Shown here in pieces: positions 1-63,817 of a DNA stretch of 64,000 nucleotides. The notes beneath the pieces are model-generated. The model made no database searches, was not told the DNA's origin, and saw only the letters and a list, made by a program, of their open reading frames with translations. The stretch comes from Catellatospora coxensis (GTDB taxonomy: Bacteria; Actinomycetota; Actinomycetes; Mycobacteriales; Micromonosporaceae). The first letter of the stretch is position 1. The number at the start of each line of letters is the position of its first letter. The position numbers and the translations under genes are program-made. Where the stretch lies: contig NZ_BONI01000010.1 in NCBI RefSeq assembly GCF_016862635.1, positions 1 through 64,000 of the forward strand, in the 5' to 3' direction.

Positions 1-1923
1 ATGCGGATGGTCGTCACCGAGCAGCCGCCTCAGACGACCCAGAACGTCCTCTTCGATGGCGCGGGCCTGACCATAATCACCGAGGCTGTGCAGAGTGAAG
101 GCCAGAATCCCGGACGCGCTGATGGTGTCCGGATGGTCATCACCGAGCAGCCGCCCACGACGACTCAGAACGTCTTCCTTCATAGCGCGGGCCTGACGGT
201 AGTCACCGAGGCTGTGCAGAGTGCTGGCCAGATTCGCGGACGCGCTGATCGTATCCAGGTGATCGTCACCGAGCAGCCGCCTCCGACGACTCAGGACGTC
301 TTCTTCGATGGTACGGGCCTGACCGTAGTCACCGAGGCTGTGCATGGTGACCGCATAGTCTTGAGCTGATCTCAGGGTGTCCAGATGGTCGGGGCCGAAG
401 GTGTTGCGGTATCGCGTGAGATTGTCTTCGATCATGGTGTTGGCGGCGCGAAAGTCGCCGAGCATGGCGGTGGCGTGGGCGAGTTCGGTGGCGGCTTTGA
501 GCGTGTGAATGTCGTTCGGGCCCAGATGGTCACGCCATTGCTGGTAAAGGTGTCTGGCAAGGTTCAGCGCGGCTGGTGTCTCGGCGCGTCGGAGAAGCTG
601 AAGAACCAGCAGGCAGGCGGCGGTGCGCAGCTGGGCGTCGTCGTTGGTGGCCGGATCCGCGGCGATCAGGTGCGGGGCTGCCGCGGACCAGGCGGGCCAG
701 GTCGCCGGGTCGTCCGTGTCCGCGGGTACTGCCGCCAAGACGACCGCGGTCGCCTGGCGACGGAGGTCGCCTACCGACTCCGGGGTGGTGTGGTGACGGA
801 TGATCGCCTGTACCAGACGGTGAACCTGGATTCCGTGGGGACCGGTTGCCGCCAGGCCGTGCTCGCCGATGGCGGTGGCCAGGTTCGGCAGCAGGCGACG
901 TTGCTGAGCGACGCTCGACAAGGGTTCATGCAGACTCTCTGCGGCACGGGCGAACATGTTCAACGGGATCGCTTCGGGCGCCAGGAACGAGCAGAGAGCC
1001 AGGAGTTGCATCGCCGCCGGGTTGTCAGCTGCCAGCCGCTGGGCCGACAGGTGCACGGTGGCCGCCAGCGAACGCGGATAGTTCAAGGGTGTGCCATCGT
1101 CGAGGATCTCGTGCGCGAAGCGGGTCAGGGCATCGAGATAGTCGTCAGTGGACATTCCGGTTCGGTTGAGAACCATGGCGGCTTGCGCGACGGCGAGCGG
1201 CAGATCACCCAGCTCAGCCGCAAGACGGTCGGCGTCTTGGCTGGACAGATGGGGTAACCGCGCCTGCAACAGGCTGACCGACTCACTGCGGTCGAACAGC
1301 CGGACCTCTACCGGGATCGCCACCTCGTCCCAGCCCGGTTGTCGGGAGGTGATGATGACGTGCCCCCCGCGGGGCGGCAGCCACTGGTTGAGCTGCCGTG
1401 GATCTTCCGCATTGTCGAAGATCAGCAGCCAGCGCCTGCTGCCGCTGACGGCGACGTGGAGGGCTTCAACGGCAGCGGGGGTGGTCACGTCAGGCTCGAC
1501 AAGACCAGACCTGACGGCGAGTTCGGCGAGGTGCCCGCCGATCAGCTCAGGGTTCTGTGATGCGACCAACCACAACACATCGTAGTCATCCGCATGCTGG
1601 CGGGCATATTCCAACGCCAGCTGGGTCTTCCCGATCCCTCCCACAGGATCCTGCGGCCGGGTCACGACACGACCCGCACGGCACAGACCCTCATGAATCT
1701 GCGTCAGCGCGGTCTCTCGGCCGACAAATCCCACATTGGCGGCACCCAAGTTCGACACCACGGCGGGCCGCTCGCGTTGATCCGATGCTGACCGGCCCAG
1801 GGGCGCAGCCGGTGACGGTTCCGGCGACCGCGGCGGCATGATGATGATCTGTTGCGCGCCGTCGCCTACGGAAACTCCGTACGCGCCCGAGGCGTCGACA
1901 TGCCGTGCCGGATCATGGTGCAC
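1..1923 (-). CDS. NLR-like NB-ARC / tetratricopeptide-repeat sensor, C-terminus cut by window edge
   Basis: This is a STAND-type ATPase with C-terminal TPRs and probably a cytoplasmic sensor. Read from the GTG at 1923, residues 16-29 contain a short motif (GVSVGDGAQQIIIM). The P-loop GGIGKT follows with its lysine at about residue 99, then LLIFDNAED (Walker B), ITSRQPGW and GDLPLAVAQAA, all typical of NB-ARC. From about residue 480 to the window edge there are 42-residue TPRs repeating LGDYxQAR and LLGDDHxDT. The reading frame stays open to base 1, so the C-terminus is missing. I chose GTG 1923 over ATG 1839 because only the longer form keeps the N-terminal motif, which matches the C-terminal tail of the gene just upstream (gap 11 bp, same strand). 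The two genes are almost certainly one operon. NB-ARC/TPR assignment is firm; the signalling role is inferred. Confidence 0.85.
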   Translation of the reverse strand, partial: MHHDPARHVDASGAYGVSVGDGAQQIIIMPPRSPEPSPAAPLGRSASDQRERPAVVSNLGAANVGFVGRETALTQIHEGLCRAGRVVTRPQDPVGGIGKTQLALEYARQHADDYDVLWLVASQNPELIGGHLAELAVRSGLVEPDVTTPAAVEALHVAVSGSRRWLLIFDNAEDPRQLNQWLPPRGGHVIITSRQPGWDEVAIPVEVRLFDRSESVSLLQARLPHLSSQDADRLAAELGDLPLAVAQAAMVLNRTGMSTDDYLDALTRFAHEILDDGTPLNYPRSLAATVHLSAQRLAADNPAAMQLLALCSFLAPEAIPLNMFARAAESLHEPLSSVAQQRRLLPNLATAIGEHGLAATGPHGIQVHRLVQAIIRHHTTPESVGDLRRQATAVVLAAVPADTDDPATWPAWSAAAPHLIAADPATNDDAQLRTAACLLVLQLLRRAETPAALNLARHLYQQWRDHLGPNDIHTLKAATELAHATAMLGDFRAANTMIEDNLTRYRNTFGPDHLDTLRSAQDYAVTMHSLGDYGQARTIEEDVLSRRRRLLGDDHLDTISASANLASTLHSLGDYRQARAMKEDVLSRRGRLLGDDHPDTISASGILAFTLHSLGDYGQARAIEEDVLGRLRRLLGDDHPH

Positions 1924-19176: not shown

Positions 19177-19476
19177 GCGTTCCTCACCGGCTAGTACGGA
19201 CCGACACCGGCCCGTGGGTGGCGCGGGCAGGCCTCGACGATCCCGGCCAACTGTACGCGGCGATACGCGAAGGGTGCTCACGACGGCCGTCCGGCCCCTG
19301 CCGCCCGGCGAACCGCGGACCGTCCGGCCGTGTCCGGTCTCCCGCGCCCGGACGCACCCCGACGAGCAGCACTTTCACCGCAAGGCGCGACCGTCCTGTC
19401 CGGACGCTCGGGTCCGGCCGCCGCCACGGTGACACGGTCATCCCACGACATCCGAGCCGAACAGAAGGAGTCACGG

Positions 19477-20037
19477 ATGAGCATCCGGCACAGGCTGGCA
19501 ACCCTGGTCCTGGCCGCGGCAGTCGCGGCGGTGACCGGTCTGGCGGCCGCGGGGCCCGCGAACGCGGCGCCCACGGCGCAGGACAACCAGACCATGGGGG
19601 TCGGGGTCTTCGAGCAGATCCGCAACGAGTACTCGTACAAGTGCCTGATCCCGAAGGGCAATTCCAGCAACCACAACGCCCCGATCGTGCAGCGCAGCTG
19701 CGAGAACCGGCCGCACCACCGCTGGGCGCTGTTCCCGACCGGCAACGGCTACTACTGGATCGTCAACCAGGGCAGCGGCCTGTGCCTCGACCTCCTGGCC
19801 AACAGCGAGGACGAGGTGCAGATCGGCACCCGGGTGCAGCAGTTCACCTGCAACGCGGCGTACACCAGCGAGGAGTGGACCCCGATCTCGTACTTCGGCA
19901 CCGGGCGCTACCTGTACCAGAACAAGGTCAAGGGCCTGTGCCTGGACGTGCTGGGCCGCTCCACCGGCAACGACGTCCCGCTGCAGGTCATCGAGTGCAA
20001 GCTGTACGAGCCCGCGCAGCAGTTCTACTACCAGTGA
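19477..20037 (+). CDS. Secreted ricin-B-type lectin-fold protein
   Basis: A 186-residue small exported protein with signal peptide (LATLVLAAAVAAVTG, cleavage near PANA-AP) and a single beta-trefoil (RICIN-like) domain. Repeats with paired Cys and QxW-like endings are visible (SGLCLDLLANSEDEVQIG, KGLCLDVLGRSTGND, ending YEPAQQFYYQ). No catalytic domain, so probably a carbohydrate-binding protein or inhibitor. ATG 19477 follows AGAAGGAG. The gene is convergent with the NB-ARC gene at 20066, with only 28 bp between them. The 300 bp upstream (19177-19476) holds no other gene. Confidence 0.82.
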   Translation: MSIRHRLATLVLAAAVAAVTGLAAAGPANAAPTAQDNQTMGVGVFEQIRNEYSYKCLIPKGNSSNHNAPIVQRSCENRPHHRWALFPTGNGYYWIVNQGSGLCLDLLANSEDEVQIGTRVQQFTCNAAYTSEEWTPISYFGTGRYLYQNKVKGLCLDVLGRSTGNDVPLQVIECKLYEPAQQFYYQ

Positions 20038-20065: not shown

Positions 20066-22399
20066 TCAGGCGGCGTCCAGCCGGGCGCGCACCGCGTGCG
20101 CGTCGTCGTGGCCGATCCGGTCGAGGATCTCCCACGCCTCCGCCAGCGCCGCCCGCGCGGCGGCCCGGTCCCCGGCGGCGAGCCGGGTCTCGGCGAGGTT
20201 CCGCAGCGTGGCCGCCGTGCCGAACCGGTCGCCGTCGGCCCGGAACATCTCCAGCGCCCGCTCGTAGCACGACACGGCCGCGGCAAGCTCCCCGAGATGG
20301 TGGTGCGCGTACCCGAGGCTGTCCAGGGTGTCGGCGACGCCCTGCGGGTCGGTGATCCGCTGCAGCCGCTCCAGCGCCCGGCGGCAGTGGGCGACGGCCT
20401 GGCGGTAGTCGCCGAGCAGGCCGAGCTGCCAGCCCACCGCGTTGAGCGTGTACGCCTCCCCCGCCGCGTTGCCCGAAGCGGTGAACAGTTCCAGCGCCCG
20501 CCGCGAGTGCTCCAGCGCCTCCCGGTGCCGGTCCGCCCGCTCCAGGGTCTGGCCGAGATTCAGGAACGTCTGGGCCAGCCCGGCGGTGTCACCGAGGTCG
20601 GCGAAGTCGTCCAGGGCCTGCTTGAGCTGCCCGTGGGACTCGTCGTGGCGGCCCAGCCGGGAGCAGGCCCGGGCCAGGTCGCGGTGCGCGTGCGCCTGCC
20701 CGGCGAGATCGCCGTCCCGCTCGGCCGCGCCCAGCACCAGCTCCTGGAGCTCGTGCCACTGCGCCCACCTCGCCCGCCGGTCCAGGTGACCGGACAGGGA
20801 CCAGGCGAGCTGCCAGGCGTGCCGGCCGAACCCCGTGCCGCAGGCCTGCCGGATCTCGGCCGCCAGCACGGCCAGCTCGGCGTCGAACCAGGTCTGGGCC
20901 GCCCGGCTGTCGGCGAGAGCCACGGCCGTCACGCCGTCGCCCGGCGGCGCGAGGGTGATGTCGCTGAACGGCGGGTGCAGCAGGACCGCGGCGCGGTGGG
21001 CCGTGTGCAGGTAGTGGTCGAGCAGCCGCTTGCCGGCGGCACGGCGGTCGGCGGCGCTGTCGGTCTCGTGCGCCAGCTCGCGGGCGTACGCCCGCACCAG
21101 GTCGTGCATCGCGTACCGGCCCGGACGATGCTCGGTGAGCAGGCCCGCGTCGCCCAGTCCGGCCAGCAGCCGCCGCGCCGAGCCGACCGGCACGTCCACC
21201 AGGCTCGCCGCCGCCACCGGCGTGATGTCACCACCCGCGGCCAGGCCCAGCAGCCGCAGCGTGCGCGCCGCCGCCGCGTCGAGAGTGCGGTACGACCAGG
21301 AGAACACGGCGCGCACGTCGGTGGACTCGTCGCCGGTCCGCAGCGCCTCCAGCTCCCCCGGCTCGTCGCGCAGCTCCCGGGCCAGCTCCGCCAGCGACAG
21401 CGCGGGCTGCAGGGCGACCCGGCAGGCCGCGACGCTCAGCGCCAGCGGCAGCCGGGCACACGCCCGCACGATCCGGTCGGCGGCGTCGCGTTCGGCGTGC
21501 AGCCGCTGCTCGCCGATACGGGAGGCGAGCAGGTCCGCGGACTCCCCCGGGCTGAGCGGGTCCAGGTGCAGCACCTGCGCGGCCTGCGCCACGACCAGCC
21601 CCGCCAGGCGGCTGCGGCTGGTCACCACCGCTCGGCAGCCCGGCCCGCTCGGCAGCAGCGGCCGCACCTGCTCGGCGTCCCGGGCGTTGTCCAGCACCAC
21701 CAGCATCCGTCGCTTCGCGAGCAGGCTGCGGTACAGCACGAGCTGCGCGTCGGGGCTGGTCGGCATCCGGTCGGGCGGCACCCCGAGCGCCTCCAGGAAG
21801 CCGCGGGTCGCCTCGACGGCCGACATGACGGCCCCGGAGGGCTCGAATCCACGCAGGTCGACATAGAGCTGACCATCGGGGAACCGAGTGGCGGCCTGGT
21901 GCGCCCAGTCGACGGCCAGCGACGTCTTGCCGATGCCCGGTGGCCCCGTGACGATCACAGGACCGGCTGCCGCCGTCAGTACCGCCAGCTCGGGCTTCCG
22001 CCCGACGAAGTGCCGCGCACGGTGCGGCAGACCCTGCGGCCGGACCTGATCCGCCTGGGCGGCTTCCAGCACGACGGACACAGGCTCCTCGCTGAGGAGC
22101 TGTTCCACCGCCGCGTGCCGCCGCCGCCAGTACTCCTCCACACCGAACCTGGCTGACAGGCTCGCGGACCGGCCCTGCTGCCGGGCGTACGCGTGGCAGT
22201 GGGCCGCGATGGCACGGACGACCCGCCAGTCGGGCAGCCGCTCGACGCGGCCGTTCAGGATCGCCCCGAGCTGGCTCTTGCCCAGCCCGACCTCGGCCGC
22301 CAGCACCCGCAGACTCGGCCCGCCCGCCTCCTCGCGCAGACGACGCAGATCGTCGCAGAGCCGGGTCATGAGTTCACGGGCACCGCCGACGGCCGGCAT
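20066..22399 (-). CDS. XRE-HTH / NB-ARC / TPR regulator
   Basis: A 777-residue STAND protein with an N-terminal XRE-like helix-turn-helix (LRVLAAEVGLGKSQLGAILN, about residues 28-50). The ATPase follows at about 125-420 (GPPGIGKTSLAVDWAHQ Walker A, RRMLVVLDNARD Walker B, ARLPLALSVAA). C-terminal TPRs contain LGRHDESHGQLKQAL, ADRHREALEHSRRALELF and LGELAAAVSCYERALEMF. The architecture resembles AfsR/SARP-type signal-integrating regulators without the SARP domain. It is divergent from the Trypco1-protease cassette across about 190 bp (22400-22590), so it may control it. Target and ligand are unknown. Confidence 0.88.
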   Translation of the reverse strand: MPAVGGARELMTRLCDDLRRLREEAGGPSLRVLAAEVGLGKSQLGAILNGRVERLPDWRVVRAIAAHCHAYARQQGRSASLSARFGVEEYWRRRHAAVEQLLSEEPVSVVLEAAQADQVRPQGLPHRARHFVGRKPELAVLTAAAGPVIVTGPPGIGKTSLAVDWAHQAATRFPDGQLYVDLRGFEPSGAVMSAVEATRGFLEALGVPPDRMPTSPDAQLVLYRSLLAKRRMLVVLDNARDAEQVRPLLPSGPGCRAVVTSRSRLAGLVVAQAAQVLHLDPLSPGESADLLASRIGEQRLHAERDAADRIVRACARLPLALSVAACRVALQPALSLAELARELRDEPGELEALRTGDESTDVRAVFSWSYRTLDAAAARTLRLLGLAAGGDITPVAAASLVDVPVGSARRLLAGLGDAGLLTEHRPGRYAMHDLVRAYARELAHETDSAADRRAAGKRLLDHYLHTAHRAAVLLHPPFSDITLAPPGDGVTAVALADSRAAQTWFDAELAVLAAEIRQACGTGFGRHAWQLAWSLSGHLDRRARWAQWHELQELVLGAAERDGDLAGQAHAHRDLARACSRLGRHDESHGQLKQALDDFADLGDTAGLAQTFLNLGQTLERADRHREALEHSRRALELFTASGNAAGEAYTLNAVGWQLGLLGDYRQAVAHCRRALERLQRITDPQGVADTLDSLGYAHHHLGELAAAVSCYERALEMFRADGDRFGTAATLRNLAETRLAAGDRAAARAALAEAWEILDRIGHDDAHAVRARLDAA

Positions 22400-22590: not shown

Positions 22591-22899
22591 ATGGTCGATC
22601 CAATGATCCGGGTTGAGGTCGTCGCCCTGGAGCCGGGCGGTGGCCGCCAGATATCGCGGCAGGATCGCGTCACCGAGTTGCTGCGGGAACGCGCGCTCGA
22701 CATCGAGGCGGCAATCGCCGAGGCCGCTCGGATAGCCGGCACCGGACTGGTCAGCTCGCATCAGCATGGCGACTGGCAGGTAACCAGCTTGGAGGCGCGC
22801 TTCGGCCTGACGCTCACCGCCGAGGCGGGCGTCATCGTCGGCAAGGCGTCGACCGAGGCATGCTTCGAGATCACGCTTACTGTGCAGCGGCGGGAATAG
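22591..22899 (+). CDS. Trypsin-co-occurring domain 1 (Trypco1) protein
   Basis: A 102-residue single-domain protein. The pattern fits the Trypco1/CU044_2847-type family: an N-terminal beta-strand pair, a helix (RALDIEAAIAEAARIAGTGL), then WQVTSLEARFGLTLTAEAGVIVGKASTEA with FEITLTVQRR at the end. Such proteins are known next to trypsin-like proteases in actinobacterial conflict-type systems, possibly as regulatory or targeting subunits. It lies 3 bp before the protease gene. A start at the ATG five codons later (MIRVEVVALE) is also possible. Call by pattern and context. Confidence 0.7.
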   Translation: MVDPMIRVEVVALEPGGGRQISRQDRVTELLRERALDIEAAIAEAARIAGTGLVSSHQHGDWQVTSLEARFGLTLTAEAGVIVGKASTEACFEITLTVQRRE

Positions 22900-22902
22900 C
22901 GC

Positions 22903-23739
22903 GTGGGCAAGCAGGACTACTGGGTGGAGATCTCGTTTCGCGGCATGCCGTGCGGTGCCGGTTTCCTGCTGACCCGCAGGCATGTGCTGACCGCCGCGCA
23001 CTGCCTGCGCCGACGCGGGGTCAAGCAGAGCGACGGCGTCGTCGTGTCGCGCGACAGCGGCCAGTCGGTGGAGGGCACCGTACTGGAGGTCGACCCGGGC
23101 CGCGACGTCGCGCTGATCCGAGTCAATGCCAAACTCGGCTGGGCTGTGCAGCCGGTCGTCACGGATCGCGGAGAGAAAGGCGACGAGTGGATGTCGCCGT
23201 ACCGGCCTGAGCCTGCCGACCCGGAGCTCAAGGGCTGGGTGTTGACCAACGCGACCGGGTTCGAGTCCAGTGGCGGCGCGACCATCGAAGCGCTGGAACT
23301 TCAGGTGCGGCAGATGCTGGGCGACTATTCGGGCTACAGCGGAAGCCCCGTGCAGCTGGAGCGACACGGCGGACCCGGCTTGGGCGCGCCCGTGGCCGTG
23401 ATCGGGATGTTGATCGAGCAGGATCTGCACCGGGTCCGGCGGGCTGAGGCCACCAACGTCCTGTTCGCGATCACCGTCGCCGAGGCCATAGGCGCGTTCG
23501 AGGACCTGCAACTGCCCGCGCAGTTCTCCAGGCTCGGCCCGCCGCCGGTGGCGGAGACGGTGTCCGAGGCAGCCGGGAGGCACTTCGCCGGTGCCCGTGC
23601 GTCGATCGCCGAGATCAAGGCGATGGTCGACGAGGGGCTCGTGTCCGACATGGAGCTGACCGAGCAGACGAAAGCGCTGCTGCGCATGGCCGGACAGCGG
23701 ACCATCGATTGGGCAGGCGGTCATGAGTCGGCTCGCTGA
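22903..23739 (+). CDS. Cytoplasmic trypsin-like serine protease
   Basis: A 278-residue S1-fold protease without a signal peptide. The catalytic triad reads H33 (VLTAAHC), D68 (GRDVALIRV) and S146 (GYSGSPV). Residues 200-278 form a helical extension (EIKAMVDEGLVSDMELTEQT) that may contact partners. The start is GTG 22903, 3 bp after the Trypco1 stop, and its end overlaps the next gene by 17 bp, so the three genes are one operon. Intracellular proteases of this type are proposed as effectors or processing factors in NTP-dependent conflict systems; the substrate is unknown. Confidence 0.85.
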   Translation: MGKQDYWVEISFRGMPCGAGFLLTRRHVLTAAHCLRRRGVKQSDGVVVSRDSGQSVEGTVLEVDPGRDVALIRVNAKLGWAVQPVVTDRGEKGDEWMSPYRPEPADPELKGWVLTNATGFESSGGATIEALELQVRQMLGDYSGYSGSPVQLERHGGPGLGAPVAVIGMLIEQDLHRVRRAEATNVLFAITVAEAIGAFEDLQLPAQFSRLGPPPVAETVSEAAGRHFAGARASIAEIKAMVDEGLVSDMELTEQTKALLRMAGQRTIDWAGGHESAR

Positions 23740-25006
23740 GTCCGTCGCCGCCGCCGAGGCCGCGCTGCAATCGTCCACCGGACGTGAGGAAGTCATTCTG
23801 CTCACCGGCTCCCTCGACGCTCGTGACATCGCGGAATCAGTCGACTCGGCGCTCTATCTCGCGGGCCTGATGAACGCGCTGCAGCTCACCTCGGGTGTCG
23901 ACCGGGTCCTCGACCTGTCGCGTGGCGCATTCCCGGAGTCGACGGCGCAGATCGAGAACGTGCGCGGCATCCTCGCGCTGCGCCGTGGAGAGCCGCACGC
24001 CGCGCTGCGTGCCCTGCGGGCGGCGATGGCCGAGCCCGCAGACCCCGGCCTCGCGTCTCGGATTCTGGTCAACCTCGCAACCGCACTGCTCCAAGCCGGA
24101 GAACACGTCGGGGCGGGGGAAACGGCCGAACTGGTACTCCGCCGGGCTTCCGACCCACGGGTGAGGACGCGCGCGGAGGCGGTTCTGGCCGTGGTGCTGG
24201 AACTGCTGGCGCGGCGCGCACACACGCAGATCGAACGGGCGCGCACCCACGGTGACTCGGAAGGCGTGCAGACGGCGATCGAGGTGCTGGAGACGGCCGC
24301 GCAGCGACTCGGGGCGGTCGTGGGCAACGCCGATCCGAGAACCGGTGGCGTGCGGGCGTTGCTGGCTTCGGCCGAACTGACCGCGTCCGTTCCAGGCCCA
24401 TCGACGCCATCGCGTGCCGCCAGACGCGTGCTGATCGCGGAGGATGAGGCGCTGATCCGGCTCGACCTCGCGGAGATGCTCACCGAGGAGGGCTACGACG
24501 TGGTCGGGGAGGCGGGCGACGGCGAGACGGCCGTGCGCCTGGCCGAGGAGTTGCGCCCCGATCTGTGCATCCTCGATCTCAAGATGCCGATCATGGACGG
24601 TCTGGCAGCAGCCGAGAAGATCGCAGGTTCGAAGATCGCACCCGTGATCATTCTGACCGCGTTCAGTCAGCGCGATCTGGTCGAGCGGGCGCGCGCGGCG
24701 GGTGCCATGGCATATCTGGTCAAACCATTCCAGCGCAGTGATCTGGTCCCGGCCATCGAGATCGCGATCTCGCGCTTCGCCGAGATCACCGCGCTCGAGG
24801 CCGAGGTCGCCGGGCTTGCCGATCGGCTGGAGACCCGCAAGGTCGTGGAACGGGCAAAGGGTGCGTTGATGTCAGGTTATGGCATGACAGAGCCGCAGGC
24901 CTTCAAGTGGATCCAACGCACTGCCATGGACCACCGCCTGACGATGCGCGAATTGGCCGAGCGAATCGTCGCCGAGACCAGCCCGGAGACAGGCTGGCAT
25001 GGATAG
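23723..25006 (+). CDS. TPR-like domain fused to REC-ANTAR antiterminator
   Basis: A 427-residue protein. Residues 1-222 are helical and TPR-like (ENVRGILALRRGEPHAALRALR, then SRILVNLATALLQAGEHVGA). After a short Pro/Ser linker comes a complete receiver domain (235-349; acidic D241/E242, phospho-acceptor D285 in CILDLKMP, T312, K334) and an ANTAR RNA-binding domain (about 355-416; ERAKGALMSGYGMTEPQAF). The REC-ANTAR part is the canonical PdtaR type, which binds paired hairpins in mRNA leaders to prevent termination. Homologues of that part normally start at about residue 232 here and stand alone. No ribosome-binding site is evident at the junction (near 24425), so a real fusion is likely. It overlaps the protease gene by 17 bp. 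Confidence 0.85.
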   Translation: MSRLAESVAAAEAALQSSTGREEVILLTGSLDARDIAESVDSALYLAGLMNALQLTSGVDRVLDLSRGAFPESTAQIENVRGILALRRGEPHAALRALRAAMAEPADPGLASRILVNLATALLQAGEHVGAGETAELVLRRASDPRVRTRAEAVLAVVLELLARRAHTQIERARTHGDSEGVQTAIEVLETAAQRLGAVVGNADPRTGGVRALLASAELTASVPGPSTPSRAARRVLIAEDEALIRLDLAEMLTEEGYDVVGEAGDGETAVRLAEELRPDLCILDLKMPIMDGLAAAEKIAGSKIAPVIILTAFSQRDLVERARAAGAMAYLVKPFQRSDLVPAIEIAISRFAEITALEAEVAGLADRLETRKVVERAKGALMSGYGMTEPQAFKWIQRTAMDHRLTMRELAERIVAETSPETGWHG

Positions 25007-26598: not shown

Positions 26599-28686
26599 CT
26601 ACGGGCGCGGCTTGCCGCCGTATGGCTTCTTCTTCTTGACCACCACCCGCTCGGCCGGGTCGTCACAGCGGGTCCGGACTTCCTGGTTGCCGTCGTCGCC
26701 GCTGTAGGAGGCGACCCACCGGTAGGTGCCGGGCACGCGCGGCCGGAACTCCTCCGAGCGGTACCGGCCGTTGCCGTCGACGTCGACGGTCGAGGTGAAC
26801 ACCGGCCGCCCGGAGCAGGTCTCGTCGCCGGGGCCGTACAGCTCGAAGGTGATCGTCCCGGTCGGCGCGACGCCGCCGGACAGGAAGGCCCGGTCGTAGA
26901 TCTCCTTGCCGAGGTAGGTGTCACGCGAGGCCTCGGTGCTCAGCGTCGGGGTGACCGTGCCCGAGCCGACCACCACCCACTCGTCCCGATCGGTGCACGG
27001 CGTGGTGACCTGCGCGTTGTTCTCGTCACCGTTGTACGTGGCAACCCACCGGTAGGTGCCCGGCGCTGTCGGCCTGGTCCGTTCGGAATCGTAGGAGGTG
27101 GCGTCGGTGAGGGTCACCGTGGAGGTGAACACGGCCGGACCGGTGCACATGGCGTTGTCCGGACCGTACAGGCGGAACGTGATCGTGCCCGTCGGGCTGT
27201 CTCCGCCGGTCAGCGTCGCGGTGTCCCAGATCTCCCCACCGAGGGCCACGTCGTCCGACGCGACCGTGTCCAGCGCCGGCGTCACCACCGCCGGGTTGAC
27301 CACCACCCATTCGAGTTCGTCGGCGCACGAGGTCGCTGCCGGCTGATTGAACCGGTCACCGCTGTAGGTGGCGATCCACCGGTACGTTCCCGCAGCCAGG
27401 GGGGTGAAGTCGTCGGACTGGTAGAGACCGTCCCGGGTCACGGTCCGTGTCGTGGTGAACGCGGCCGTGCCGGTGCACATGGCGTTGTCCGGGCCGTACG
27501 CCTGGAACGTGATCGTGCCGGTCGGGTTGTTGCCGCCCGCCAGCCTCGCGACGTCGTGGATCTGCCCGCCGAACGTGATGTCCGCCGACGCGACGGTGGT
27601 CAGGTCCGGCGTGGCCCGTGCGACGCAGTTCAGGGGGGCGGTGAACGGGAAGTAGTGCATCTCGCCGCCGTCGGCCGCGGCGGTGCCGTGGATGAGGCTG
27701 GCCACGATGACCTGGCCCTCGATGTTGTTGGAGTTCAAGTCGGTCACGTCGGCGTTGGGGGCGTACAGCGTGCCCTCCAGCACCGAAGAGCCCGTCAGGG
27801 TGATCGCGGTCGCCGTCGGGAAGTTCCACAGCAGGAAGGGCGCGTCGGTGCCGCCGATGCCGGCCGGGGTGGGCACGGTCCAGTTGAACGTGTTGCCGGG
27901 TGCGGTGTCGACGTTGATCAGCAGGGGCGTGCCGGAGGTCGGCGGGGTCACGAAGGTGAGCGTGGAGATGTTGGCCAGGTTGGCGGCCGTGATGTTCAGG
28001 ACGTTGGTGCCCGCGCCGAGGTTGATGTAGGCGTTGGTCATGGGCGGCAGGTTCTGCGGCAGGTCGTCGCCGTTGGCGTTCTTGAGGACGACGGTGTTGG
28101 TGCAGCCGGCGAGGTCGGTCGACGAGCTGCGGAAGTCGGCGAAGGCGGTGGCGAAGTCGATGCCGGAGTCGCGCAGGACGGAGTCGACCGGCTGCTCGAC
28201 CCGGAGTTCCACGCGTGGCGTCGAGCCGTAGGAGGCGCCCTCGGCAACGATGTGGGTGTTCCCCGAGTTGCCGCCGTCGTCGGTGTCGCGCACATCGGCC
28301 CCGGTCGGGTCGCCCAGCTTGGCGTAGCCCTGCTGCACGTCCAGGATGGTCGCGCTGCTGGCGGTGAAGTTGATGGCACCGCCGATGACCAGGGCGCTGG
28401 GCACGTCGTCGAGGGGAGCCTCGTACGTGCCCGGTGACGCCCCGGCGACCTCGTAGCTGCCGCCGATGGTGAGGGTGCCGCCCAGCGCCACCGGACCTTC
28501 GGTCTCGTTGCCGGTGAGGGTGGCGTCGCCTTCGGCGAAGACGTTGAAGCCCAGAGCGGCGGCCGTCGGTGAGGCGGGGCTCACCGCTCGGGCCGGATCA
28601 GGGGCGACCATGACCAGCATCGCGGAGGCTGCCGCGCTCAGCAATGCCGTGGCGGCGACGATGCCGCGCATCCGAGTTGTCTGCAT
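26599..28686 (-). CDS. Choice-of-anchor A family secreted protein with three Ig-like repeats
   Basis: About 695 residues, exported (RGIVAATALLSAAASAML... with cleavage near PARA-VS). The first half is a choice-of-anchor A domain: LGFNVFAEGDATLTGNETEG, AYINLGAGTNVLNITA, LLWNFPTATAITLTGSSVLEG-type beta-helix segments ending VIVASLIHG. The second half has three repeats of about 107 residues sharing PTGTITFxxYGPxxxxCxG and PGTYRWVATYxGD. The end is basic (VVKKKKPYGGKPRP) with no LPXTG anchor. Translation could also start at ATG 28725 or 28734; none has a good ribosome-binding site. Probably a surface or matrix protein. Convergent hairpin downstream, divergent GH2 upstream. Confidence 0.8.
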   Translation of the reverse strand: MQTTRMRGIVAATALLSAAASAMLVMVAPDPARAVSPASPTAAALGFNVFAEGDATLTGNETEGPVALGGTLTIGGSYEVAGASPGTYEAPLDDVPSALVIGGAINFTASSATILDVQQGYAKLGDPTGADVRDTDDGGNSGNTHIVAEGASYGSTPRVELRVEQPVDSVLRDSGIDFATAFADFRSSSTDLAGCTNTVVLKNANGDDLPQNLPPMTNAYINLGAGTNVLNITAANLANISTLTFVTPPTSGTPLLINVDTAPGNTFNWTVPTPAGIGGTDAPFLLWNFPTATAITLTGSSVLEGTLYAPNADVTDLNSNNIEGQVIVASLIHGTAAADGGEMHYFPFTAPLNCVARATPDLTTVASADITFGGQIHDVARLAGGNNPTGTITFQAYGPDNAMCTGTAAFTTTRTVTRDGLYQSDDFTPLAAGTYRWIATYSGDRFNQPAATSCADELEWVVVNPAVVTPALDTVASDDVALGGEIWDTATLTGGDSPTGTITFRLYGPDNAMCTGPAVFTSTVTLTDATSYDSERTRPTAPGTYRWVATYNGDENNAQVTTPCTDRDEWVVVGSGTVTPTLSTEASRDTYLGKEIYDRAFLSGGVAPTGTITFELYGPGDETCSGRPVFTSTVDVDGNGRYRSEEFRPRVPGTYRWVASYSGDDGNQEVRTRCDDPAERVVVKKKKPYGGKPRP

Positions 28687-28821
28687 GTCTGAGGTATATC
28701 GGCCGTTCAGGCCTTTTAGCCTCATTATCTCCATTTAAGCGTATCAGAGCCATTAGAAGATTAATGTCCCGTTTGATACCCGCTGCCCGCCAGCCGGATG
28801 TGTCCAGGCGATGGCCAGACC

Positions 28822-62199: not shown

Positions 62200-62600
62200 G
62201 CCAGGAAGGTCTGCCGATTCTCCGGTGTGTATGAACCTCCGGGCTGCACGTCGTGTGGTTCCCGAAGTTCCGCCGTCCGGTCCTCGGTGGCCGGGTCGCG
62301 TAACGCCTGGACGAGTTGGTCCGAGCCGAGGCAGACGGACGGGGGTGGGAGATCGTGGCGCTGGAGGTGATGCCAGACCACGTCCACCTGTTCGTCAAGC
62401 ACCACCCGAAGGACTCCGCGTCATACGTCGCGAACCGGTTCAAGGGCTTTTCTTCCCGCATCCTGCGCGAGGAGTTCCTACATCTGCGCTCGAAGCTGCC
62501 CACCTTGTGGTCGTCGTCGCACTTCGCCGCGTCGGTTGACGCCGTGAGCGGCGCCCAGTGGGAGCGGCTCTGGAGGAAAATTCGGGGCGACGTGTCGTGA
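62200..62600 (+). pseudogene. tnpA: tnpA (HUH Y1 transposase) pseudogene
   Basis: The frame ending at 62600 contains HVVWFPKFRRPVLGGRV, WEIVALEVMPDHVHLFVKHH (the HUH motif), FKGFSSRILREEF and SSHFAASVDAVS, all typical of IS200 TnpA. It has an in-frame TAA at 62301-62303 and a TGA at 62232-62234, and the N-terminus is in another frame. After AVS it jumps to QWERLWRK; intact homologues have about nine more residues here that include the catalytic Tyr. The protein cannot be active. The end overlaps the tnpB start (GTGA). Confidence 0.85.
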
Positions 62601-63817
62601 TCCGCGCCTACAAGTTCCTCCTGCGACCTACCGTGCGCCAGGAGCAGGCCTTGGCCGAGATGCTGGCCGACCACCGGTCGCTGTACAACGCCGCCCTGCA
62701 GGAACGTCGTGACGCCTACCGGCACGCGTCGAAGACCACGATCCGCTACGGCGATCAGTCCGCCCAGTTGAAACACATCCGTGCGTTCGACCCCGAACGG
62801 CAGGGCCGCTGGTCGTTCTCCTCCCAGCAGGCCACCCTGCGGCGGCTGGACAAGGCGTTCGCCGCGTTCTTCGGCCGCGTCAAAGCCGGAAAGACCCCCG
62901 GCTACCCCCGCTTCAAAGGAGCCGGGCACTTCAACACCGTGACCTTCCCGAAAGACGGCGACGGCTGCCGCTGGAACAGCACCCCAGACGACACCCAGAG
63001 CAGGGTCCGTCTGCAGGGTGTGGGGCACGTTCGGGTGCACCAGCACCGGCCGGTCGACGGCCGTGTGAAGACCGTATCGGTCAAACGTGAAGGCCGCCGC
63101 TGGTACCTGGTCCTGTCCTGCGACAACGTCGCTGCGCAGCCGCTGCCACCCACGGGCAGCATCGTCGGAGTCGACGTCGGCACCGTGCACTTTCTCACCG
63201 ACTCCAACGGTACGCACGAGCCGAACCCGAAGTTCCTGCGCACGACGGCCGGCGAGCTGGCCGCAGCCCAGCAGCACCTTTCGACGTATCCGCAGCGCAC
63301 CAGACGCCGCACGAGAAAGCACCGGGCCGCCGCCCGCAAGGTCGCCGACCTGCACCGCAAGATCGCGCGCAGGCGGCTCGACCATCACCACAAGACGGCC
63401 TTGAGGCTGGTGCGCCGGCACGACGTGATCGGGCACGAGAACCTGAACATCGCGGGTATGACCAGCAAGCCCGCGCCCAAGCCCGATCCCGGAAACGACG
63501 GCGTGTTCCTGCCCAACCAGGCCGCCGCCAAGTCCGGGCTCAACCACGCCATCCTCGACGCAGGTTGGGGACAGTTCCTGGCAATCCTCGCGAACAAGGC
63601 TGAGAGCGCCGGTCGCCGAACGATTCCAGTGGACGCCCGCAACACCTCCCGCACCTGCCCGCCCCAGATCGGCGGCTGCGGGCACGTCGCGAAGGAAAAC
63701 CGCGTCAACCAAGCCGAGTTCGAGTGCGTCAACTGCGGTCTGGTCGAACACGCCGACCGGGTAGGCGCGCTCAACGTTCTCTACAGGACCGGGCTGGTCC
63801 TCTGCGCCGGCGGCTAG
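62597..63817 (+). CDS. tnpB: TnpB RNA-guided nuclease (IS605 family)
   Basis: A 406-residue TnpB. The N-terminal domain starts IRAYKFLLRPTVRQEQALAE. The RuvC nuclease has all three acidic residues: D193 (VGVDVGTVHF), E281 (GHENLN) and D387 (HADRVGALN). A zinc ribbon sits between them (RTCPPQIGGCGHV ... ECVNCGLV). TnpB is known to cut DNA guided by an RNA from the element's right end and to help keep the element in the genome. The start is GTG 62597, coupled to tnpA. Confidence 0.92.
   Translation: MIRAYKFLLRPTVRQEQALAEMLADHRSLYNAALQERRDAYRHASKTTIRYGDQSAQLKHIRAFDPERQGRWSFSSQQATLRRLDKAFAAFFGRVKAGKTPGYPRFKGAGHFNTVTFPKDGDGCRWNSTPDDTQSRVRLQGVGHVRVHQHRPVDGRVKTVSVKREGRRWYLVLSCDNVAAQPLPPTGSIVGVDVGTVHFLTDSNGTHEPNPKFLRTTAGELAAAQQHLSTYPQRTRRRTRKHRAAARKVADLHRKIARRRLDHHHKTALRLVRRHDVIGHENLNIAGMTSKPAPKPDPGNDGVFLPNQAAAKSGLNHAILDAGWGQFLAILANKAESAGRRTIPVDARNTSRTCPPQIGGCGHVAKENRVNQAEFECVNCGLVEHADRVGALNVLYRTGLVLCAGG

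Follow-up and report, generated by a model that had tools for sequence, protein, structure and literature searches.

The window analysed here, a 64,000-nucleotide stretch of the actinomycete Catellatospora coxensis (Micromonosporaceae; contig NZ_BONI01000010.1, positions 1 to 64,000), carries at 22591-25006 three forward-strand genes that encode a Trypco1 protein, a trypsin-like protease and a TPR-REC-ANTAR protein. We compared this cassette with related loci in other genomes and suggest below that its third gene holds a captured copy of a host regulator, which may serve as bait. All three reading frames are open over their full coordinates and form a compact apparent operon. The Trypco1 gene (22591..22899; 102 amino acids) matches PF19493 (41.5 bits, Pfam cut-off 24.6) and NCBIfam NF041216 (33.1 bits, cut-off 23). 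It adjoins, after 3 nt, the protease gene (22903..23739; 278 amino acids, GTG start), which matches Trypsin_2 (PF13365; 43.8 bits, cut-off 27.6), and both Pfam families are thus above cut-off. A profile alignment of protease sequences places the catalytic residues at His33 (22999..23001), Asp68 (23104..23106) and Ser146 (23338..23340, in the motif GDYSGYSGSPV), and the triad is intact. By the open reading frame (ORF) coordinates, the third gene (23723..25006; 427 amino acids) overlaps the second by 17 nt (23723..23739), which makes translational coupling possible. The preliminary description of this DNA had placed the same genes in one apparent operon, with the third as an in-frame fusion, and the ORF coordinates and Pfam matches bear this out.

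The first 222 residues of the third gene (23723..24388) form a helical TPR region that is constant among the cassettes described below. A profile built from the N-termini of 26 other third genes, the window's excluded, matches these residues colinearly (79.3 bits, E 4.4e-24); another TPR gene of the window (1-1923, - strand) gives a background of 20.9 bits, and no match to 200 shuffles or to the reversed sequence was reported at E up to 10. The N-terminal boundaries for this profile were set by eye, with locus L217 included and L207 and L216 left out (loci and genomes are cited by L and G numbers). Pfam TPR models match within residues 61-148 below cut-off. An AlphaFold2 model predicts 12 helices in residues 1-222, followed by a linker, REC and ANTAR (mean predicted local distance difference test score, pLDDT, 82.8; predicted template modelling score 0.50). 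The alignment rows covered the C-terminal part alone, so the N-terminus was modelled from a single sequence.

After the linker (residues 223-234, 24389..24424; pLDDT <50 at 224-232), residues 235-419 (24425..24979) are an extra, nearly complete copy of PdtaR, the Rv1626-type REC-ANTAR antiterminator solved as PDB 1s8n. Residues 225-419 align over nearly the whole of that structure (E 8.7e-81), and among the 50 rows listed from a fold search PdtaR/EutV and receiver-domain proteins come first, with no verdict on the TPR part. The REC domain (residues 236-345, 24428..24757; PF00072, 97.1 bits, cut-off 30.2) and the ANTAR domain (residues 365-416, 24815..24970; PF03861, 77.2 bits, cut-off 27.3) both exceed their cut-offs. 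All phosphorylation residues of REC are present, as had been described before: the acidic pair E240/D241, the acceptor D285, T312 and K334. Where conservation reaches at least 97% across 110 other PdtaR rows, some of them non-independent, the copy departs at two positions, both conservatively (I286L and V411L). A separate start near 24425 had been named as grounds against a fusion. Nothing resembling a ribosome site lies in the 20 bases upstream of a GTG at 24428, which would start inside the first REC strand. Another GTG, at 24350 (residue 210), is preceded at about 10 bases by GAGAA; it could be an additional start, and would yield PdtaR with a 25-residue tail as a second product.

There are four ANTAR matches in this genome, the window's included, and a separate pdtaR, a possibility raised in the preliminary description, lies intact on another contig (G000:C65:26511-27080). 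Its flanks align with pdtaR flanks in genomes of the same genus (3070 bp at 89% in G010), and its protein sequence is identical to that of four named Catellatospora species. The fused part is 87% identical to this resident PdtaR over residues 231-420, and the copy differs from it at about 10% of residues. DNA homology between the two spans 24425-24976, and when 10 kb of the window are compared with the pdtaR loci of 29 relatives the alignment is confined to 24413-24988, leaving about 550 bp of coding sequence in common. PdtaR is free-standing at a conserved locus, and the window copy is fused and away from that locus. The cassette had been thought to have arisen by insertion in front of an ancestral pdtaR gene; this origin is ruled out, because the resident gene is intact and syntenic on C65, with shared flanks, and the window copy shares only the short coding segment.

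By the Nei-Gojobori method, fused and resident pdtaR differ by a synonymous divergence (dS) of 0.72 and a nonsynonymous divergence (dN) of 0.071; the ratio dN/dS of 0.10 indicates purifying selection on the window copy. Phylogenetically, the fused PdtaR groups with sequences from the window's genus and from neighbouring genera in a supported clade (99/93). Approximately unbiased (AU) tests reject none of three placements within it: in the clade of its own genus (p 0.356), in the resident's subclade (p 0.23) and as sister to the resident alone (p 0.084). The same fusion was sought in 61 genomes, as had been proposed: among the matches listed, none besides the window gene starts before residue 185 or extends over the TPR region. 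The protease profile found no match at E 1e-25 in 10 relatives of the same genus, which makes the cassette an accessory locus; G003, a relative in the genus, has a weak trypsin match to protease P0002 (E 9.8e-4).

Protease searches recovered loci with the same three-part layout of Trypco1, protease and TPR third gene. Hits came from 20 of 300 family genomes at E 0.001, 12 of 290 family genomes at E 1e-25, 6 of 394 class genomes at E 1e-12, and 19 of 315 genomes at E 1e-25 in one genus that we call Streptomyces-like, a label inferred in part from AfsR and S1 matches. From 38 fetched regions, 26 were kept with the window for a protease tree, giving 27 cassettes from Micromonosporaceae and the Streptomyces-like genus. 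Of a first 13 regions, eight (L161-L168) were excluded because their ORF layout, size and, for five, Pfam matches showed a different Trypco1/trypsin architecture. From the other 25, the tree and the Trypco1 and triad counts below leave out L216 (third gene apparently broken), L217 (a protease fragment), and L218 and L221 (other architecture), and the hits in G511 and G527 were outside the sample. When 30 other protease loci were scanned, 21 had a Trypco1 match, two of these being in the profile's seed; of the four loci left out of the counts, L217, L218 and L221 carry one. A direct search with the N-terminal TPR region hit 12 of 300 and 5 of 296 genomes, all weakly besides the window's own; the best outside hit (G152, E 4.1e-7) lies inside an S1 cassette. 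The in-frame architecture of TPR region and module recurs in other genera, including several single-contig genomes.

Mobile spread of the cassette was also considered and was rejected, as protease P0002 had no relatives in plasmids or phages (tblastn, E 1e-5). A scan of viral contigs with one short conserved peptide pattern returned 26 candidates, none of them a relative.

The C-terminal slot of the third gene varies greatly. In 14 of the 27 third genes it is filled by a known host protein in copied form: AfsR in five (L200-L203 and L206, of which L200-L202 and L206 were assigned by similarity rather than by family scan), ribosomal protein S1 in three (L156, L220 and, in divergent form, L214), and a BldN-family sigma factor in two (L158 and L160, with NCBIfam matches below cut-off). 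PdtaR (the window), UMP kinase (L157), a SigB/F/G-type sigma factor (L204, over the NCBIfam subfamily cut-off) and DUF742 (L175) occur once each. Two further loci (L205 and L207) have the BTAD part only, 52 and 56% identical to L203 over about 264 and 208 residues, and may be shortened AfsR. Four slots are enzyme-like, with CHAT (L208), HAD (L209) or a transmembrane plus hydrolase-like module (L176, with a Pfam match below cut-off, and L211, 46% identical to L176). Five hold modules that we could not name, four of them sharing a domain at 40-51% identity (L177, L212, L215 and L219; the fifth is L210), and two have no extra module (L159, with more TPR, and L213, which is short). The labels of L177, L205, L207, L211 and L219 were likewise assigned by similarity rather than by family scan. 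NCBIfam equivalog cut-offs are exceeded by UMP kinase of L157 (259.8 against 243.9 bits), S1 of L220 (947.6 against 691) and AfsR of L203 (1714.3 against 1430).

On the protease tree, parsimony requires at least 17 module changes, where the floor for 16 labels is 15. The N-termini of L203 and L204, which end in AfsR and SigF respectively, are 58% identical over 300 columns. The predicted proteins thus show modules interchanging around a constant TPR region. PdtaR is one of many cargoes, since the same position holds S1, UMP kinase, sigma factors, AfsR, DUF742, CHAT, HAD or hydrolase-like modules in other genomes, and the link to antitermination that had been placed at the core of the system is not its central feature.

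A separate copy of the captured protein is kept in 11 of 12 genomes checked: pdtaR in G000, S1 in G717 and G152, UMP kinase in G281, a sigma factor in G130 and G065, and AfsR in G831, G749, G793, G910 and G952. In G786, which is 78% complete, no full separate S1 was found, only the fused one, 35% identical to the S1 query. Several copies are nearly full length: AfsR of L203 corresponds to residues 6-996 of the 996 of its resident, UMP kinase to 7-251 of 252, and S1 of L220 to model positions 6-485 of 486. S1 of L156 is partial (86-428 of a 485-residue query), and both BldN-family sigma modules lack the N-terminal parts of their residents, with lengths taken from the longest ORFs; the L160 module is without the first 130 residues of the longest ORF of its resident relative. 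The alignments show capture of nearly complete host proteins, with retention of the resident gene.

Fused and resident sequences range from near identity to strong divergence. In G717, the fused S1 (L220 5598-7054) matches the resident rpsA at 1453 of 1457 bases (99.7% DNA identity); the two lie about 2.7 Mb apart on one 10-Mb contig, a case of very recent capture or gene conversion. This pair was left out of the dN/dS comparison, as its protein alignment ran into unrelated N-terminal sequence. At the other end, the sigma module of L158 is 45% identical in residues to its resident in G065, with a dN/dS of 0.66, and S1 of L214 is 35% identical to that of L220. Nei-Gojobori dN/dS values between fused and resident copies are 0.14 for the L160 sigma factor, 0.18 for AfsR of L203, 0.23 for UMP kinase and 0.37 for S1 of L156.

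An AfsR tree was built from five fused and nine resident proteins of eight genomes, with a third AfsR-like copy of G809, which contains a stop, left out. In G793, G952 and G831 the fused copy is sister to the AfsR resident in that genome (100/99, 99/99 and 100/99), the fused copies of G749 and G910 pair together, and monophyly of the five fused copies is rejected (AU p 4.8e-38); because the tree holds so few residents, a gene of another strain may in truth be the nearest relative. Host genes were repeatedly captured, or repeatedly re-homogenised by gene conversion, either of which would give the same tree. Either way, the fused AfsR copy follows the host's own protein.

The state of the protease varies too. 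The triad is intact in the window and in 20 other rows of the tree; all three residues are lost in L213, L214 and L220, and the serine in L177, L215 and L219. Trypco1 occurs at 19 of the 21 loci with an intact triad and at none of the six with a lost one (Fisher p 9.5e-5 over 27 loci), a test that overstates independence because the losses amount to about two independent events on the tree. It stands behind the third gene in L156, whose S1 cassette has an intact triad, and on the opposite strand in L160, and was not found at L157 and L159, both with intact triads. Trypco1 may thus work on the protease in its active state, either as a cofactor or as an inhibitor, and the family provides a handle on Trypco1, which among the 27 loci was found only where the triad is intact.

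Other features of these loci were also noted. L213, L214 and L220 form a sister group whose protease has H, D and S replaced throughout and is a pseudoprotease; an upstream gene of 500-550 amino acids there takes the place of Trypco1. The upstream gene of L177, L216 and L219 is one of 184-194 amino acids with an initial hydrophobic stretch; these genes were read by eye. In the group with the shared unnamed C-terminal domain, three of four proteases have lost the serine.

So, what are captured host proteins doing on a protease cassette? That the locus is of a conflict or defence type, as the preliminary description had it and as we judge to be right, we infer from the published association of Trypco1 with trypsins and from the accessory distribution. 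Our leading interpretation, tentative and a little short of an even chance, is that the three-gene Trypco1-protease-TPR conflict cassette displays its captured module as an integrated decoy, or bait. The TPR protein would hold the protease inactive in a complex, with Trypco1 as cofactor or inhibitor. An invader protein that binds or modifies PdtaR to seize transcription would also strike the fused copy; the change would be relayed through the TPR solenoid and the protease switched on. The active protease would cut host or invader proteins, and growth would stop before the invader spreads.

Several lines of sequence evidence favour the decoy. Known host proteins are copied in 14 of 27 cassettes, 11 of 12 genomes keep the original, the modules change at least 17 times on the tree, and the fused S1 of G717 is almost identical to its resident. 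In our judgement S1 and UMP kinase are implausible as released effectors, and the strongly changed copies in L158 and L214 may be what is expected of bait. That two of the three S1-type cassettes have an inactive protease, and that fused AfsR tracks the resident protein, points in the same direction. Kaur et al. 2020 (PMC7159879) proposed decoys in related systems, for effector domains that are inactive. We therefore rank the decoy first, followed by a released regulator, a targeting module and an ordinary effector slot with chance fusions.

A number of observations weigh against the decoy. We know of no phage or other invader protein that hits PdtaR, AfsR or PyrH, and none was sought. The intact phosphorylation residues, ANTAR core and dN/dS of about 0.10 of the window copy would fit a working regulator equally well, and for a descent of that copy from its own lineage, the test as sister to the resident gives neither proof nor rejection (AU p 0.084). 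No full separate S1 was found in G786, and the 12-genome check covered modules other than SigF (G979) and DUF742 (G619). The slot may be an effector slot, because 4 of 27 modules are enzyme-like (CHAT, HAD and two hydrolase-like) and 5 of 27 could not be named. Proteolysis cannot be the output in the predicted pseudoprotease loci L213, L214 and L220, two of them with S1-type modules, because all three catalytic residues are lost. Phage defence by these cassettes is itself a presumption.

The strongest of the alternatives, unlikely but deserving attention, makes the module a tethered regulator: the TPR part would keep an extra PdtaR, sigma factor or AfsR inactive until a triggered protease cuts the linker, and the freed regulator would reprogram expression. 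Many modules are indeed regulators (PdtaR, three sigma factors and AfsR), the window copy keeps its functional residues under purifying selection, and the low-confidence linker predicted at 224-232 would suit cleavage. BldN undergoes processing, and the truncated sigma module of L160 would fit release of a mature sigma factor. Kaur et al. (PMC7159879) also propose effector release by proteolysis. However, S1 and UMP kinase are left unexplained, in our judgement, as the cell makes both already; the S1-type loci L220 and L214 have a catalytically inactive protease, and the modules of L158 and L214 are strongly changed.

Less likely again, the host-protein copy may be a targeting module that brings the protease to its partners, such as RNA polymerase, nascent RNA, the ribosome or the PyrH hexamer, for destruction in a suicide response. 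S1, sigma factors and ANTAR proteins all bind to core machinery of the cell, and several modules are nearly complete and could keep such contacts. The pseudoproteases of L213, L214 and L220 speak against it, however, and we see no obvious suicide target for DUF742 or AfsR.

Improbable, in our view, is an ordinary variable effector slot, in which the captured host genes would have been fused by chance and contribute little, with sensing left to the TPR region. CHAT, HAD, hydrolase-like and unnamed domains do fill the slot elsewhere, and L159 and L213 have no extra module. Chance sits poorly with AfsR, which alone was captured or homogenised several times, and with the purifying selection on the window's PdtaR copy. 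An assembly error, or two genes read as one, is very improbable: the genome is in 222 contigs and the GTG at 24350, with its weak upstream GAGAA, could start a PdtaR-only product, but the same in-frame architecture recurs in other genera, the junction has no better start, and the divergence of the copy from the resident, at about 10% of residues, shows that it is no misplaced fragment of that gene.

If the modules are bait, the cassettes would be a bacterial counterpart of integrated-decoy receptors, and AfsR, S1, sigma factors, PdtaR and UMP kinase would predict targets of actinophages. More broadly, and with a shade less conviction than for the locus itself, we suggest that protease-armed TPR receptors of actinomycetes repeatedly capture, and refresh by recombination, whole host proteins of transcription, translation and nucleotide metabolism as bait. 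Were this true, the captured genes would be a readout of the host proteins that invaders attack. Should the modules instead be freed regulators or devices for targeting, the repeated uptake of core host genes by a conflict cassette, AfsR several times, is still a process that we did not find in the papers searched.

The surroundings of the cassette were also inventoried. An NB-ARC plus TPR (STAND-type) protein directly adjoins it on the opposite strand (20066-22399, -), next to a ricin-B lectin protein (19447-20034, +); on the other side lies an ice-binding-like adhesive protein with Ig-like repeats (26599-28734, -). The TPR protein at 1-1923 (-) is cut by the window edge and has a weak DUF7779 match. 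Near the far end (62316-63817, +) is an IS200/IS605-type pair, a Y1 transposase piece of 94 amino acids and a 419-amino-acid TnpB/OrfB that bears a Cas12f1-like TNB domain.

How does the cassette compare with known systems? Its composition had been thought undescribed, and among open-licence PMC papers we likewise found no account of captured host proteins on a Trypco1-protease-TPR cassette, although one may exist elsewhere. Kaur et al. 2020 (PMC7159879) named Trypco1 and assigned Trypco-trypsin pairs to the VMAP ternary systems. They count receiver and S1-like domains among the effectors that vWA proteins carry, and they suggest that inactive effector domains or enzyme versions act as decoys; the words ANTAR, sigma factor and housekeeping do not occur in its main text. 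A 2024 paper (PMC10907252) finds Trypco1 to be an adapter in systems linked to diversity-generating retroelements, and PMC8195603 mentions receiver domains and extracytoplasmic function sigma genes in other such systems. The present cassette resembles the VMAP (MoxR-vWA) systems in setting Trypco1 beside a trypsin-like peptidase and in its highly variable module. Here, however, it is a TPR protein that carries this module, often a host protein copied almost in full, and no Pfam match to MoxR, vWA or VMAP domains was found in the three cassette genes or the five flanking genes scanned.

Similarity to the defence proteases Avs1b and LmuA (PADLOC, NCBIfam) is a weak one of trypsin fold. The protease scores 30.6 bits against Avs1b, far below the cut-off of 1500, and 29.3 bits against LmuA, for which the PADLOC output gives no cut-off; the profile lengths (1931 and 425) and the architecture differ. 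PdtaR itself is matched by residues 225-419 of the third gene, down to the REC phosphorylation residues and the ANTAR domain, but here it is fused behind a TPR region in a protease operon and is extra to an intact, syntenic pdtaR. A further parallel lies in plants, whose nucleotide-binding leucine-rich repeat receptors with integrated domains (NLR-ID) carry an extra copy of a host protein on an immune-type scaffold, with the proteins varying by lineage. By analogy, the cassettes also fuse an extra host-protein copy to what would be an immune scaffold and keep the original (in 11 of 12 genomes), but they are bacterial, with a TPR protein and a trypsin-like protease in place of the NLR.

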